NCBI RefSeq assembly: GCF_038618305.1
Contig: NZ_CP152017.1
Span: 845,501-909,500 of the forward strand
Direction: 5' to 3'
Length of the DNA stretch: 64,000 bases
Origin: Sporosarcina sp. FSL K6-2383
Lineage (GTDB): Bacteria > Bacillota > Bacilli > Bacillales_A > Planococcaceae
A model generated the notes under the pieces. It was not told the origin of the DNA and ran no database searches. It saw only the letters and a program-made list of their open reading frames with translations. Each line of letters begins with the position of its first letter. The first letter of the stretch is position 1. Shown in pieces: positions 29,630 to 36,298 of the stretch. Position numbers and translations under genes: made by a program.

Positions 29630-29702
29630 GGGGCATTAGCTCAGCTGGGAGAGTGTCACGCTGGCAGTGTGAAGGTCAGGGGTTCGAGCCCCCTATGCTC
29701 CA
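29630..29702 (+). tRNA. tRNA-Ala (anticodon GGC)
   Basis: A 73-base cloverleaf: acceptor GGGGCAT/ATGCTCC (one G-U), D arm GCTC...GAGT, anticodon stem TCACG/TGTGA with loop CTGGCAG giving anticodon GGC, variable loop AGGTC, T arm AGGGG-TTCGAGC-CCCCT, discriminator A. The CCA end is not encoded. Its 3' end is the attachment site of the island that follows. Confidence 0.93.
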
Positions 29703-29808
29703 TATGAAATAATTAAAAGTATCCATTAGGATACTTTTTTTGATTGGAAAGCGGAAATGAATCTTGTTCAGTTTTCAGACTAATGTTCTAGTATGAAATC
29801 CCTATAAT
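29681..29808 (+). repeat. Left 128-bp direct repeat (attL) with tRNA 3' end
   Basis: From GGTTCGAGCCC of the tRNA T arm to CCCTATAAT. The same 128 bases recur at 36171-36298 with three differences (two in the tRNA acceptor/T-arm region, one further on). It includes the tRNA terminator. Far longer than a usual att core. Confidence 0.9.
29715..29741 (+). terminator. tRNA-Ala terminator
   Basis: AAAAGTATCC-ATTA-GGATACTTTTTTT: a 9-10 bp stem and U-tract just after the tRNA. Also duplicated in the right repeat. Confidence 0.9.
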
Positions 29809-30177: not shown

Positions 30178-30387
30178 AATTAGTCATCAACCGCTCGGTC
30201 CCGCATGGGTCCAACCATAAAAGAAAATCAATATACAATTAATCTAACATCTTTTAATTTCTTTAGCAATTATTTTTATGTTGGCAGCATCTCCCTCAAG
30301 GTGCTTTTTCTCTTGCAATATGAACAAGTAAAAGCGGGGTGCAGTTCAGGGTAGGTCGCTTTTTTTGTCAAGTTTTGTCGAAAGTCT
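30178..30387. other. Non-coding stretch of the island with terminator-like hairpins
   Basis: No credible ORF. On the plus strand AGCATCT-CCCTCA-AGGTGCT followed by five T (30286-30310) is a terminator nearly identical to those at 32078 and 35614. A weaker stem AAAGCG/CGCTTT with a long T-tract ends near 30366. A small plus-strand RNA could end here; none is proven. Confidence 0.5.
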
Positions 30388-30416: not shown

Positions 30417-30491
30417 ACCTATATTCAGAATATAGTTACTATACATAACTTGTTGTTTTAAAAATATAATATGGAAAGGAGTATGGAGAGG

Positions 30492-30875
30492 ATGCCTTTT
30501 AAAGAAGAAAACTTCCCTGAACAATGCCCTCCATTTGATGCAATAGAGCAGGATATTAATCCTATATACAGAATCATAGAAAATGATACAGTTCAAGAAA
30601 TTGATTTTTTAAATCATAGGGAAAGAAAAAAACCATATCCACAAAATAAGACGTGTGAAGCGCTTGCGATATCATTTTTCACTACTGCTAAAGCAGCTAG
30701 CGATGCAACCAAAAGATTTAAAAATTTAAGGAATAAAAAGTTTGTTGGAGGAATTATTACTTCAAAAAGTGGTATACATAAAACGGAGAATGTTCATTTG
30801 AATTTATGGTTATATAAAGATGTTGATATGGTAAAAGTGTTTCTAGGAGAGGGAGATGGTAATGAGAATAAATAA
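30492..30875 (+). CDS. Unrecognised 127-residue island protein, first of a pair
   Basis: Encodes a soluble protein with a proline-rich N-terminus (EENFPEQCPPFDAIEQD), a DFLNHRERKKP segment, then CEALAISFFTTAKAA and a C-terminal HLNLWLYKDVDMVKVF. I do not recognise the family. ATG 30492 is chosen because GGAGAGG and AAAGGAG lie upstream; two in-frame ATGs at 30471 and 30483 are possible. It overlaps the next gene by 14 bases, implying translational coupling and a shared function. Confidence 0.65.
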   Translation: MPFKEENFPEQCPPFDAIEQDINPIYRIIENDTVQEIDFLNHRERKKPYPQNKTCEALAISFFTTAKAASDATKRFKNLRNKKFVGGIITSKSGIHKTENVHLNLWLYKDVDMVKVFLGEGDGNENK

Positions 30876-32079
30876 ATACTCTGAACTAGAAGCGCTTGAA
30901 ATTGTACATATTTTTGACTACTATGATTTCCCATTGTTTTTTATTTCCAAGTCATTAAAATCGGAATACTATTTAAACTACTACATTGAAGAAATTCAAG
31001 AACATGTCGATAAATGGTTCTTCAGTAGAATTTCTAATAAAGAGAGAGTCAATTTAATAGAGCAACGAATATCCGTAGTAAAACTGCTGAACAGACTTTT
31101 AAAAAATGGCAGATTACATCACCTATTTATTGATTCTTTATTAGAGGCTTCTGAAGTGAAAATAGTTCTTGAAGTAGTGGATGAAAGTAATTTCGAGATA
31201 GATAGCTATCCGGAAGAAGATTTCGTGGTTGATTACGACTACATAAGTAAAGAAAGTTTAAATAAGGTCAATGAAACGATTATTGATAGTTCAAGGTTTA
31301 AATTAGTATTTAAAGACGAGTCGAATAATCACGATATAGATTTAAATTTATTTATGGATTTAATGCAAAAATTCAATAAAACATATGATGGATTATTGCA
31401 ATTGAAAAATAAATTAATTAATGAGAGGGTGATTGATGCTAACTACTCAATGAATTTGAAGATTGATTCATTTCAACCTTCTTCGTTCGGAGTATGGTTG
31501 AAAACAGATCCGTTTGAAGCGGATTTGTTCGAGATACCAGAAAGATCTTTGAGTTCTTTTTATGATTTAGTTAATGAAGTTAAAGAAAACAATGGAATAG
31601 TGATAGAAGAATCTCTTGAAGTAGATGAAGAATACAATATTGAAACTATCAAAGACATGAAAAACTTTTTGAAAGAAATATCTTCAAATAAATTAACTTT
31701 TACTCTTGAAGCGCAAAATAAATCCGATAACAATGAAATTAAAACAGTAGTATTTGATAAAAATAATTACTCGAAAATCGAAGTATTGAATGATATTTTA
31801 GTGAAAAATAGTAACGAAAAATCTGAAGTAATAGAAATAGAAGGGATATTAACTTCTATAAATATTCCTAATAATAAATTTAGATTGACTTCCGATGAAT
31901 ATGGAGAAATACAGGGTAGTATGTCTAAAACTCTTAGGGATGCCGTAAAAGATTCTTTTGACCAGCAATTTAAAGTACCAGGTAAAATCAAAACACAAAT
32001 TGAGAGGAAAATAATTAATAATCACTTGGATGAGGAATATACAACAAAAAATAAAATGATTTCTTTTACTCAGGATTAA
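30862..32079 (+). CDS. Unrecognised 405-residue island protein, second of a pair
   Basis: A large, acidic, Asn/Glu/Lys-rich soluble protein without membrane segments. The N-terminal third (EALEIVHIFDYYDFPLFF; EEIQEHVDKWFFSRIS) looks like a distinct globular domain; the middle has charged helices; the C-terminal part (EVIEIEGILTSINIPNNKF, then RLTSDEYGEIQG) looks beta-rich, perhaps OB- or SH3-like. Function not assignable. ATG 30862 has GGGAG eight bases upstream. It starts inside the preceding gene and is followed by a terminator. The two-gene, island-borne layout would suit a defence or toxin-antitoxin pair, but nothing catalytic is visible. Confidence 0.7.
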   Translation: MRINKYSELEALEIVHIFDYYDFPLFFISKSLKSEYYLNYYIEEIQEHVDKWFFSRISNKERVNLIEQRISVVKLLNRLLKNGRLHHLFIDSLLEASEVKIVLEVVDESNFEIDSYPEEDFVVDYDYISKESLNKVNETIIDSSRFKLVFKDESNNHDIDLNLFMDLMQKFNKTYDGLLQLKNKLINERVIDANYSMNLKIDSFQPSSFGVWLKTDPFEADLFEIPERSLSSFYDLVNEVKENNGIVIEESLEVDEEYNIETIKDMKNFLKEISSNKLTFTLEAQNKSDNNEIKTVVFDKNNYSKIEVLNDILVKNSNEKSEVIEIEGILTSINIPNNKFRLTSDEYGEIQGSMSKTLRDAVKDSFDQQFKVPGKIKTQIERKIINNHLDEEYTTKNKMISFTQD

Positions 32080-32102
32080 GCATCTCTCGCGAGGTGCTTT
32101 TT
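32078..32102 (+). terminator. Terminator after the two-gene island operon
   Basis: AAGCATCTC-TCGC-GAGGTGCTT followed by TTT. Nearly identical hairpins are at 30286 and 35614. The GAGGTG of the second arm also serves as a ribosome site for the ATG at 32103. Confidence 0.85.
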
Positions 32103-32387: not shown

Positions 32388-32774
32388 ATGACTGAAGAAA
32401 ACATACGTAAAGAAATGGAACAGTTAGGTATCAGCGAAGAGACCGTGAATAGTATGAAACGTCTATTCTTGAAAATGTCAGTACCGAGGTTCATTGAGGA
32501 AAAACGGAAAGAAGAAGAAAGAGAAAGGTTGGCTTTGGATTATGCTGATAATCAGCTTGAAGCTAAAAGGTTGCCTATGCGACGTATAAGAGGCGTGAAG
32601 TCACTTGTGGAATATCTTGAATCCATTGACTGCCCAATATCGGAATCTACTATATATCGACTAGTGAGGGTCAAAACAATTCCGTTTAGGAGACCATCCC
32701 CACAGGTTCTAATATTTGATTTAGATGACATTGATTATTGGTTGAGTTCTGACTATGAGGAAGCAAGTCAATGA
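32388..32774 (+). CDS. Excisionase-like HTH protein, copy 2
   Basis: A 128-residue protein. Residues about 1-60 are charged and helical (LFLKMSVPRFIEEKRKEEER). Residues about 68-125 are the same HTH as copy 1 (GVKSLVEYLESIDCPISEST; then YRLVRVKTIPFRRPSPQ and LIFDLDDIDYWL). GGGGTGA lies nine bases before ATG. The stop overlaps the next small ORF as ATGA. A DNA-binding regulator or recombination directionality factor is likely; its target is unknown. Confidence 0.75.
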   Translation: MTEENIRKEMEQLGISEETVNSMKRLFLKMSVPRFIEEKRKEEERERLALDYADNQLEAKRLPMRRIRGVKSLVEYLESIDCPISESTIYRLVRVKTIPFRRPSPQVLIFDLDDIDYWLSSDYEEASQ

Positions 32775-32896
32775 TCTCTATACGTACTAAGAGAGAGAGG
32801 CACGAATTCTTTTTAAGAACTTCGGCACCGCGTATAGCTACTAAGATGGAGCAAGAACAGCGAGAGCAGGAAGAAGGTAAGAAAAGGGAGGAGTAA
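32771..32896 (+). CDS. 41-residue ORF resembling the N-terminal part of the HTH protein
   Basis: Starts at an ATGA overlap with the preceding gene and encodes a charged peptide with FFLRTSAPRIATKMEQEQRE, similar to LFLKMSVPRFIEEKRKEEER in copy 2. It stops two bases before the next HTH ORF. Copy 3 is thus split into an N-terminal ORF and an HTH ORF. It could be translated, or part of a decayed duplicate. Confidence 0.5.
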   Translation: MISIRTKRERHEFFLRTSAPRIATKMEQEQREQEEGKKREE

Positions 32897-32898
32897 TC

Positions 32899-33089
32899 AT
32901 GCGAAGGGTACGCGGAACAAAAGCGCTAGTCGAATACCTGGTATCTATCGGTTGTCCAATGTCGGAAGCTACAATTTATAAGCTGTTACGTGAGAAGCGC
33001 ATTCCGGCAATCCGTCCAGCGATCGTATCTTACTTTTTGACCTGGATGCAATTGATCGATGGCTTACTGTAGACGAAAGTGAGGTGTAA
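32899..33089 (+). pseudogene. Frameshifted excisionase-like HTH, copy 3
   Basis: ATG 32899 follows GGGAGGAG and reads MRRVRGTKALVEYLVSIGCP then SEATIYKLLREKRIPAIRP, matching copies 1 and 2. It then leaves frame and stops at 33072. Another frame restores LLFDLDAIDRWLTVDESEV up to TAA at 33087-33089. A single missing base near 33018-33022 explains the break. Confidence 0.65.
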
Positions 33090-34150: not shown

Positions 34151-35458
34151 ATGACTGCTGAAATATGTCTAATAAATAAAATGGGAATTGCCCTGGCTGC
34201 CGATAGTGCAGTTACGATTGGTGGCGGAAATAAGATTTACAATAGCGCTAATAAATTATTTGCGCTATCAAAATACCAGCCTGTTGGTGTAATGATTTAT
34301 GGAAATGCAAATTTCTTACGAGTGCCTTGGGAAACGATTATAAAATTATATAGAGAAAAATTAGGGAAGAAGGAGTTTGAAAGACTCGAAGAATACTATA
34401 ATGATTTTAAATCTTTTTTAGAAGAGAATGAATATGAAGAGTTGACATCAACTAAAGAAGAAGAAAGGTATAACCTGGCAGTAATAGAGCAAATACTTTC
34501 TAATCAATACGACGATTTGATGCGTACAGTTAAAAGTTTTCTTGATGAACATTCCGAGATTCTTCAAGAAAACCTTCATGATATTACAGCAGATTTATTT
34601 AAAGAAAGAATTAAAAAAGTTTTAAGAGTGCTAGATAATCGGGATTACATCGGGGAATTTTCGAGTCAACAACATAAATTTCTATCGGAGAAATATGATG
34701 ATCATATAATACATATAATTGAACATTACTTTAATGAGATAAATGTTTATAGCGAGCAATATGAGGACTTAAAAGAAATTGTAAAACAGTTGTTACTAAA
34801 AGAGTTTTCAAAACACTCATCAGGCTTAGTAATTGCTGGCTTTGGTAGGAAGGATATATATCCTGTTATGATTGCCCATACATTTGATGGGAAAATAGCA
34901 AATATGATAAAAGTATCAAAAACCGCCCAATCAGAAATAGGAGAAAAATCAGATGCAGGAATTTACCCTTTTGCCCAAAGTGAAATGGTACACTCTTTTC
35001 TGGAGGGGATAGATCCAGAAATGAAGAGTCTCTCAGATAATTATCTCCATCAAACGTTTCACGAGATATCAGATATCTTTATCAATCAACTTGAGGATGC
35101 ATTAAAAGAAGGAATAAATAAAGAAGACTTGGAATTGAGTATTAAAAGCGAATTTATTAAAGTTTTTGAAAGATATAACGAAACAATTGAAGGCTTCCAA
35201 AAAAGAGAGTTTACGGACCCTACTTTAGCAATAGTTCGCAGTCTTCCTAAGGGGGAACTTGCAGAGATGGCTGAGTCATTGGTTAATTTAACTTCATTTC
35301 GGAGAAAGGCGTCAGGAAGTTTAGAGACGGTTGGTGGACCGATTGACGTCGCAGTTATCACTAAAGGCGATGGACTTGTTTGGATAAAAAGAAAGTATTA
35401 TTTTGATCCGGATAGAAATCAACATTTTTATACAAACTACTTCGAGGAGGAGATTTAA
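34151..35458 (+). CDS. Proteasome-fold (Ntn hydrolase-like) protein with large helical insertion
   Basis: A 435-residue protein. After Met removal the N-terminus would be Thr (MTAEICL). Proteasome-like features follow: Asp in ALAADSAVTIGG at the place of Asp17, a Lys in NKLFAL close to the place of Lys33, and a VGVMIYGNA strand. Residues about 70-220 are a helical insertion. The fold resumes at HSSGLVIAGFGRKDIYPVMI and ends with GGPIDVAVITKGDGLVWIKR, the usual last strands of proteasome beta/HslV. It is not HslV or Anbu by length or pattern. GGGGGAG precedes ATG; a small coupled gene follows. Protease or amidase activity is inferred only from these residues. Confidence 0.7.
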   Translation: MTAEICLINKMGIALAADSAVTIGGGNKIYNSANKLFALSKYQPVGVMIYGNANFLRVPWETIIKLYREKLGKKEFERLEEYYNDFKSFLEENEYEELTSTKEEERYNLAVIEQILSNQYDDLMRTVKSFLDEHSEILQENLHDITADLFKERIKKVLRVLDNRDYIGEFSSQQHKFLSEKYDDHIIHIIEHYFNEINVYSEQYEDLKEIVKQLLLKEFSKHSSGLVIAGFGRKDIYPVMIAHTFDGKIANMIKVSKTAQSEIGEKSDAGIYPFAQSEMVHSFLEGIDPEMKSLSDNYLHQTFHEISDIFINQLEDALKEGINKEDLELSIKSEFIKVFERYNETIEGFQKREFTDPTLAIVRSLPKGELAEMAESLVNLTSFRRKASGSLETVGGPIDVAVITKGDGLVWIKRKYYFDPDRNQHFYTNYFEEEI

Positions 35459-35608
35459 ATGAAGGAATTATTAAAGTTGTCGATGATGTCAAAGTTCGGT
35501 AAAAAAGAAAGCATTGCAGATATGAAAGTTAAAGAAAAAGAAAATGTGAAAGAATTGGGTGCTTCTATGGCTAAGGAATCAATGATGAAAGTGCTTGTGA
35601 AAATTTAG
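35459..35608 (+). CDS. 49-residue protein coupled to the Ntn-hydrolase-like gene
   Basis: ATG 35459 follows the preceding TAA without a gap, with GAGGAGGAG six bases upstream. It encodes a Met/Lys/Glu-rich peptide (MKELLKLSMMSKFGKKESIA ... SMMKVLVKI) with no membrane helix. Immediate coupling suggests a partner, substrate or regulator of the upstream protein. A terminator follows. Family unknown. Confidence 0.65.
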   Translation: MKELLKLSMMSKFGKKESIADMKVKEKENVKELGASMAKESMMKVLVKI

Positions 35609-35613
35609 TTGAT

Positions 35614-35640
35614 AAAGCATCTCTCACGAGGTGCTTTTTT
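35614..35640 (+). terminator. Terminator of the Ntn-hydrolase operon
   Basis: AAGCATCTC-TCAC-GAGGTGCTT followed by TTTT; third copy of the island's terminator hairpin. Confidence 0.88.
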
Positions 35641-36042: not shown

Positions 36043-36138
36043 TTGTAACCCCTTGTAACCCCTTGTAACCCCTTGTAACCCCTTGTAACCCCTTGTAACC
36101 CCTTGTAACCCCTTGTAACCCCTTGTAACCCCTTGTAA
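36043..36138 (+). repeat. Tandem repeat of TTGTAACCCC, about 9.6 copies
   Basis: The 10-bp unit TTGTAACCCC is repeated with no change for nine units plus a partial one, ending 33 bp before the right att repeat. A 10-bp period matches one DNA helical turn, so all units face the same side, as with iterons or recombinase arm sites. Confidence 0.95.
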
Positions 36139-36170: not shown

Positions 36171-36298
36171 GGTTCGAGCCCGGTATGCTCCATATGAAAT
36201 AATTAAAAGTATCCATTAGGATACTTTTTTTGATTGGAAAGCGGAAATGAATCTTGTTCAGTTTTTAGACTAATGTTCTAGTATGAAATCCCTATAAT
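36171..36298 (+). repeat. Right 128-bp direct repeat (attR) with truncated tRNA-Ala end
   Basis: Copy of 29681-29808 with three substitutions. It begins with the last 22 bases of the tRNA (GGTTCGAGCCCGGTATGCTCCA, two bases changed) and includes the tRNA terminator. It is not a functional tRNA. Confidence 0.9.

Follow-up and report, generated by a model that had tools for sequence, protein, structure and literature searches.

The 64,000-nucleotide stretch of the Sporosarcina sp. FSL K6-2383 genome analysed here (contig NZ_CP152017.1, positions 845,501 to 909,500; hereafter the window) encodes a 435-residue proteasome-like hydrolase (34151..35458, forward strand), followed without a gap by a gene for a 49-residue partner protein (35459..35608, forward strand). 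The enzyme most likely adds a new member to a subfamily that has already been described. What appears to be new is the partner gene, which is nearly constant in the bacterial, archaeal and viral-contig loci examined and suggests that enzyme and partner form a two-part machine. The best explanation of the data as a whole, to which we give an even chance of being correct, is a mobile two-gene module consisting of a threonine hydrolase and a docking regulatory or targeting subunit, which would favour its carrier in competition with other mobile elements.

The reading frames, coordinates and motifs on which an earlier note had based its proposal of a proteasome-like N-terminal nucleophile (Ntn) hydrolase were confirmed from the sequence. 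The enzyme starts with Met-Thr and contains the motifs AADSAVT (with Asp18), NKLF (with Lys35), SSGLVIAGFG and IDVAVITKGDG, the catalytic codons being located at 34154-34156 (Thr2), 34202-34204 (Asp18) and 34253-34255 (Lys35) on the forward strand. Numbered without Met1 these residues become Thr1, Asp17 and Lys34, which places the aspartate at the proteasome Asp17 position and the lysine next to its proteasome counterpart Lys33, as had been claimed. A low-confidence loop of the structural model (residues 23-31) lies between Asp18 and Lys35. Among 254 distinct enzymes, including that of the window and with gaps excluded, the threonine is conserved in 249/250, the aspartate in 252/252 and the lysine in 253/253; the invariance expected of this triad was borne out, and a Met-Thr start without a propeptide is supported.

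The assignment draws on the open reading frame (ORF), the conserved triad, the structural model and a match to the PHROGs profile phrog_5990, which covers the full length of the enzyme (residues 1-430, E 1.6e-117) and is itself unnamed and of unknown function. No match above the cut-offs was obtained in Pfam, NCBIfam or PADLOC. A protein search identified 6375 relatives at E <= 0.001 among the 7998 scored candidates sharing most words with the enzyme, of which 120 were listed. A sequence search of the PDB with the enzyme revealed no clear relative, and a profile of the enzyme matched the Thermoplasma acidophilum proteasome beta subunit over 18 positions (E 0.061). The best PDB matches of this profile were to cullin-3 chains (E 0.0022) and fell on the helical insertion (positions 82-159 of the profile, alignment A1); they were read as a chance likeness of helical repeats.

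Structure prediction combined with Foldseek comparison yielded an Ntn sandwich fold of the proteasome type for the enzyme, as the earlier note had anticipated. The model helices 60-71 and 79-91, taken as H1 and H2 by the order of elements, are followed by a helical insertion reaching to residue ~221, by the strands of the second sheet, and by a long helical stretch (289-388) around H3 and H4. Insertion 1 comprises about residues 95-221 (34433..34813, forward strand; model helices 96-217 according to DSSP), and insertion 2, which separates the helices assigned by order to H3 and H4, about residues 289-366 of the model (35015..35248, forward strand). The additional residues, estimated before at about 150, are indeed helical, but they form two insertions rather than one. 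Both are poorly conserved, with mean top-residue fractions of 0.28 (residues 90-221) and 0.26 (residues 290-356), as compared with 0.66 in the core, and the C-terminal tail RKYYFDPDRNQHFYTNYFEEEI (35390..35455, forward strand; RKHYFxxxLNxxFFxNYxR in the family) reaches 0.67.

Among the 22 new proteasome homologues described by Fuchs, Alva and Lupas in 2021 (PMC8665760), PMI-4, represented by HDY66466.1, is portrayed as having a proteasome beta-like core with Thr, Asp and Lys, no propeptide, insertions after H1/H2 and between H3/H4, and a range comprising many bacterial phyla, Euryarchaeota and phages. The enzyme of the window shares all of these features, including the host range, by description rather than by sequence comparison. 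Of the types that this description names for the two insertion sites, only PMI-3 and PMI-4 have both; PMI-3 is based on few sequences and is not reported for Firmicutes or phages, for which only PMI-4 is tabulated (PMC8665760). The enzyme is therefore probably of the PMI-4 type, by description and elimination. The earlier interpretation stands as regards the predicted fold, the triad, the Met-Thr start and the coupled gene, while its statement that the protein fits none of the known types needs correction, since a published type with matching insertion sites does exist. The coupled small gene is unmentioned in the main text of the PMI-4 paper, which reports no genomic context or co-occurrence pattern hinting at function (PMC8665760).

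The 20S proteasome beta subunit, HslV and Anbu share with the enzyme the fold and the order of the catalytic residues, and Anbu chains were among the Foldseek matches. However, the proteasome and Anbu chains listed have ~180-250 aa and no large insertions, and the enzyme, with 435 aa and two insertions, lacks the compact form (about 170-250 aa, no large insertions) of these three subunit types. No AAA+ match indicative of an HslV-type operon with HslU was found in the seven other ORFs scanned around the gene pair, within the island described below, and AAA_16 was identified in 2/127 scanned neighbours of enzyme relatives. Connectase, an archaeal protein ligase, is likewise proteasome-like, with a helical insertion and a specific substrate, but it is described as lacking H1/H2 and carrying a two-helix insertion between S3 and S4 (PMC8665760), whereas the enzyme has helices 60-71 and 79-91 in the place of H1/H2 and its insertions elsewhere.

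In the window the TAA stop codon of the enzyme gene directly abuts the ATG of the partner gene, and a Shine-Dalgarno-like sequence, GAGGAGGAG, read from the sequence at 35444..35452 (forward strand), falls within the last codons of the enzyme. The unit is closed by a terminator-like hairpin with a T run (35614..35637, forward strand), weak evidence when taken alone, with one such structure found against a shuffle mean of 0.8. The constancy of this arrangement was assessed in three samples. The first comprised the best 80 of 492 relatives from a search of one genome per species, six annotated phage or plasmid records and the window, giving 87 loci, of which 83 were assessable after removal of two with a broken enzyme (L055, L066) and two at contig ends (L057, L002). 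An ORF of 40-90 aa starting from 35 nt before to 80 nt after the enzyme stop was present in 78/83 loci (94%), as against 400/1067 controls (37%), which were other mechanically called ORFs of >= 150 aa from the same loci, spurious ones included; with a ribosome-site-like motif the counts were 68/83 (82%) and 109/1067 (10%). The second sample, drawn from the best 80 of 159 viral-contig relatives found by an alignment-based scan, contained 59 distinct enzymes, some nearly alike and three at contig ends; 54/56 are followed by an ORF with a length of 35-95 aa and a position within -40 to +100 nt, limits wider than those of the control. In the third, for which 398 genomes were drawn evenly from the class, a partner ORF within -70 to +100 nt follows five of the six full enzymes other than that of the window. 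Outside these samples a partner ORF is present in L180, L183, L184, L194, L196 and L197, while L178 and L179 end at the enzyme and L195 is broken. Together with the TAA-ATG junction, this recurrence indicates that the small gene is truly coupled to the enzyme, as had been proposed; the idea that it is always adjacent holds nearly, but not strictly. The counted misses are L013, L051, L052, L064 and L071 in the first sample, L091 and L100 in the second and L187 in the third. They include L064, where the enzyme is broken and a partner lies behind its true end, L100, where a frame reading KEFFPKKYERE overlaps the enzyme more deeply, and L071, which looks degraded.

A profile was built from 44 partners chosen by a motif rule, leaving out that of the window, and compared with 19,060 ORFs of 30-200 aa from the enzyme loci. 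All matches better than E 1.5 are located directly behind an enzyme, including partners outside the profile in L055 (2.7e-20), L066 (8.5e-20), L040 (3.8e-16) and L020 (3.2e-12). The 49-residue protein of the window scores 12.7 bits (E 0.1), above every non-adjacent ORF, through KEKENVKELGASMAKESMMKV, within a helix motif common to the partner family (codons 25-45, 35531-35593); none of 5000 shuffles of this protein attained that score, the best reaching 9.0. Partners from separate searches scored 51.1 bits (L185) and 32.4 bits (L088). The core consensus is roughly KVYRSxxEFxKxFFPxS...DPxxxGxxLAxExL. The 106 non-redundant partners of all types have a median length of 59 residues, 88% have a net positive charge and 10 lack proline; an aromatic-proline pattern, [FYW][FYNL]P, chosen after viewing the partner sequences, occurs in 44 of them (shuffle mean 3.0, maximum 8). 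Scans against NCBIfam, Pfam and PHROGs gave scattered weak matches and no convincing curated family, no PDB chain matched the partners, and 22 database proteins resembling them were found. The model of one partner has helices at 14-21, 23-31 and 37-57 (pLDDT 80, pTM 0.37). The Pup-proteasome gene pair of Actinobacteria is similar in that a small-protein gene stands beside a proteasome-type gene. Pup has a conserved C-terminal Gly or Glu, and no such conserved C-terminus is present in the partner alignment rows shown, a difference judged from these rows and not from a direct comparison with Pup.

Enzyme and partner also vary together. The first two samples provided 131 enzyme-partner pairs, of which 110 have enzyme cores less than 90% identical, and among these 110 loci partner and enzyme distances are correlated (Spearman 0.49, 5995 pairs, with the tree ignored). 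Given the core, partial correlations with the partner are 0.32 for insertion 1, 0.21 for insertion 2 and 0.13 for the tail, each exceeding 500/500 permutations that ignore phylogeny; the signal of insertion 1 may partly reflect its fast evolution. In the Bacillaceae loci L013, L051 and L052, which probably represent one clade (no tree stands behind this), the enzymes end at WVK[RK]K, with neither tail nor partner. A regular-expression test associated tail and partner (Fisher p 0.0098), yet the expression called nine partner-bearing enzymes tail-less, whereas only 4/254 enzymes lack residue 417; because of these miscalls, and since the three informative cases are probably one clade, the association is only a hint. 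No natural enzyme-partner fusion was found among 14 candidates, and no third gene is a frequent companion of the pair: no neighbour family occurs in more than 5/87 loci, with a few in 4 or 5.

The relatives of the enzyme are broadly spread, including archaea in the one-genome-per-species search, and patchy at closer range. The family was found in 1/61 genomes drawn from relatives of the organism, namely its own, and in none of the 36 others of the genus; it occurs in 8/398 genomes of the class and 3/398 of the phylum, in draws that overlap. Relatives are encoded in 13/50,697 phage records and 10/72,556 plasmid records, of which eight and seven, respectively, were viewed. Of four Streptococcus satellites, three have them as their terminal genes, whereas seven genes follow in the fourth, and the enzyme gene is also the last in a Streptococcus prophage; in a Providencia phage they lie between the Q and methylase genes and holin, and in a Porphyromonas phage among structural genes. 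One version known from a viral contig is present in 9/5426 E. coli genomes, and in the two E. coli prophage loci viewed the enzyme is located between Q and methylase, tRNA and holin genes, the prophage lying on the opposite strand. In these E. coli prophages an unannotated 49-codon partner gene with a ribosome site is situated directly behind the enzyme (L183, 13308-13457; L184, 7308-7457), and the partner of satellite Javan421 (L003, 10509-10673) is likewise unannotated.

No functional theme emerged from the 127 of 273 eligible neighbouring genes in cellular genomes that were scanned, none of 187 Pfam families occurring in more than three of them, and the strand arrangement of neighbours follows no clear pattern, as judged without a formal test. 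PADLOC families with E <= 1e-5 numbered 167, each in <=2/127 genes, and restriction-modification enzymes are among the 25 of them listed; because these are raw counts without a baseline, no defence-island enrichment is claimed. In four of the seven plasmid loci viewed, all on rhizobial plasmids (L181, L194, L195 and L197), a distance of ~1.2-1.5 kb separates the enzyme gene from a group of multiubiquitin, ThiF and DUF6527 genes, with a ClpP-like gene annotated in three of the four; L181 is a Mesorhizobium copy, differently arranged and about 38% identical. By tblastn, multiubiquitin and ThiF genes were detected at no other enzyme locus examined.

The gene pair of the window resides in a 6.5-kb island bounded by 128-nt direct repeats. 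A tRNA-Ala (GGC) gene at 29630..29702 (forward strand) serves as the integration site; the left att-like repeat, formed by the 3' end of the tRNA gene and its flank (29681..29808, forward strand), is 98% identical to the right one (36171..36298, forward strand). In another genome of the genus (L170), only one repeat copy, at one tRNA-Ala gene, joins the two flanks directly, and from this empty site it follows that the 6490 bp were probably acquired by site-specific recombination. The G+C content drops from about 0.42 outside to 0.28-0.39 inside. The 'tRNA island' of the earlier note is accordingly an island at a tRNA gene, the 3' end of which is repeated at 36171, with only one tRNA. None of the island ORFs scanned was recognisable as an integrase gene; two of them contain an HTH_17-like motif, both below the curated cut-off. 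Four island proteins were scanned against PADLOC-DB 2.0.0, with no family reaching E <= 1.

Several further features of the island were noted. Overlapping genes of 134 and 407 aa with low G+C (30471-32079) possibly constitute another cargo unit; neither has a significant Pfam match, and the latter also none in PHROGs, NCBIfam and PADLOC. A terminator-like repeat ends both the 407-aa gene (32074-32102) and the enzyme-partner unit (35611-35639), the two copies being 93% alike, and a weaker third copy (72%) is present at 30281-30309, as if units were swapped as cassettes. About nine tandem copies of the 10-bp unit CCCTTGTAAC are located just inside the right att-like repeat (36045-36138), and ORFs of 41 and 57 aa at 32771-33072 resemble, by eye, two fragments of a second copy of the HTH_17-like gene located at 32388-32774.

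From the computed properties, namely the predicted fold, the conserved triad, the gene coupling and the mobility, we infer the activity, docking, regulation and defence role of the module as follows. Methionine aminopeptidase would remove Met1 and thereby expose the threonine as the nucleophile, assisted by Asp17 and Lys33/34. Because of its two helical insertions the enzyme is unlikely to form the usual stacked rings and would probably operate as a small assembly acting on few specific substrates. The downstream gene would probably be translated in step with that of the enzyme, giving a basic helical partner of roughly 50-60 aa, which most likely docks on insertion 1, and perhaps on the C-terminal tail, as a regulatory or targeting subunit that would steer or gate the active site; the aromatic-proline motif of many partners may be positioned near it. 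The module is carried as cargo on plasmids, in tRNA islands and by phages and their satellites, and the carrier most likely gains an advantage from it against other mobile elements. A role in mobile-element conflict would fit the distribution, and phage defence is plausible. Anti-phage hotspots in phages and satellites are documented (PMC9122126), and a word search of the main texts of two wide-ranging papers on the discovery of defence systems (PMC13092281, PMC9519451) found none of the terms 'proteasome', 'Ntn' and 'protease'.

Several observations weigh against this explanation. The enzymes of L013, L051, L052, L071 and L091 keep Thr, Asp and Lys and have no clear partner, nor is one clear in L187 and the plasmid locus L181, L182 having only a 35-aa ORF; because intact-triad enzymes of this kind exist, the partner is not strictly needed. 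Partners of L186 (8.3 bits, equalled by 7/5000 shuffles) and L189 (2.2 bits, 99/5000) match the profile weakly, and those of E. coli, L188 and L190 do not match it, so that several partner types are equivalents by position with homology unproven; the partner of the window itself lacks proline, and its match is confined to the C-terminal helix. The enzyme core retains a partial correlation of 0.24 with the partner given the rest and all three other regions exceeded the permutations, for which reason the proposed docking site is no more than a guess. When modelled alone the partner shows no confident fold, PADLOC knows neither protein, and the 25 commonest Pfam families among the neighbours are mainly metabolic.

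The partner could instead be a dedicated substrate, cut or ligated at the aromatic-proline motif like a connectase substrate or a Pup-like tag, an alternative that we regard as unlikely. Connectase is a proteasome homologue, the substrate of which is stated to hold KDPGA (KD-PGA), with PGA at P1'-P3' (PMC11745163). The enrichment of the aromatic-proline motif and the one-to-one coupling of the two genes are in line with a substrate, but the strict motif is found in only 44 partners, the window partner lacks proline, as do 10 of the 106 non-redundant partners, the divergence of the partners exceeds that expected of a fixed cleavage site, no Pup-like C-terminal Gly or Glu is conserved in the alignment rows shown, and H1/H2, absent in connectase, are present. 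A more specific variant, a widespread phage-borne tagging of proteins, in which the threonine would form an acyl link to the partner at this motif and transfer it to phage or host targets as an ATPase-independent ligase with its own tag, seems decidedly improbable. The pair might also resemble a toxin-antitoxin system with a harmful protease and an inhibitor released upon phage infection; the coupling on mobile elements and the fast-evolving, basic helical partner would suit it, but the enzyme-first gene order is the less usual one for such pairs, and if the partner restrained a lethal enzyme, the five enzymes with an intact triad and no recognisable partner should not exist. In its favour, work on the regulation of the Fic effector SoFic mentions a small gene next to that of the effector (PMC12249575); on balance we give this possibility little weight.

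Ordinary protein turnover or metabolism, with the module present on mobile elements by accident, is again a minority option. It accords with the broad spread of the family and with the metabolic character of the commonest neighbouring families, each in <=3 of the 127 flanking genes, but not with the patchiness seen in the class and, for one viral-contig version, in E. coli, nor with the gene context, since the module lies among phage or satellite genes wherever this was viewed (eight phage or satellite records and two loci in E. coli). The idea that the ORFs behind the enzymes arose by chance or belong to unrelated genes is hardly credible: a short ORF occupies the same position behind more than a third of the controls (400/1067) and many partner types are unalignable, but the excess over the controls, which are mechanical and in part spurious, is large with and without the ribosome-site-like motif, the profile is specific to adjacent ORFs, the motif is enriched, and no shuffle attains the score of the window partner.

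No published mention of the partner gene was found in the open-access literature, the search covering neither subscription papers nor most preprints and supplements. The proteasome relatives that carry large insertions were catalogued in 2021 with no hint of their function, and the partner gene provides the missing handle. If the mobile pair of enzyme and partner is a defence module, it would be the first proteasome-fold enzyme in such a role, as far as the literature searched shows, and would bear on how proteasome-type proteases work without ATPases.
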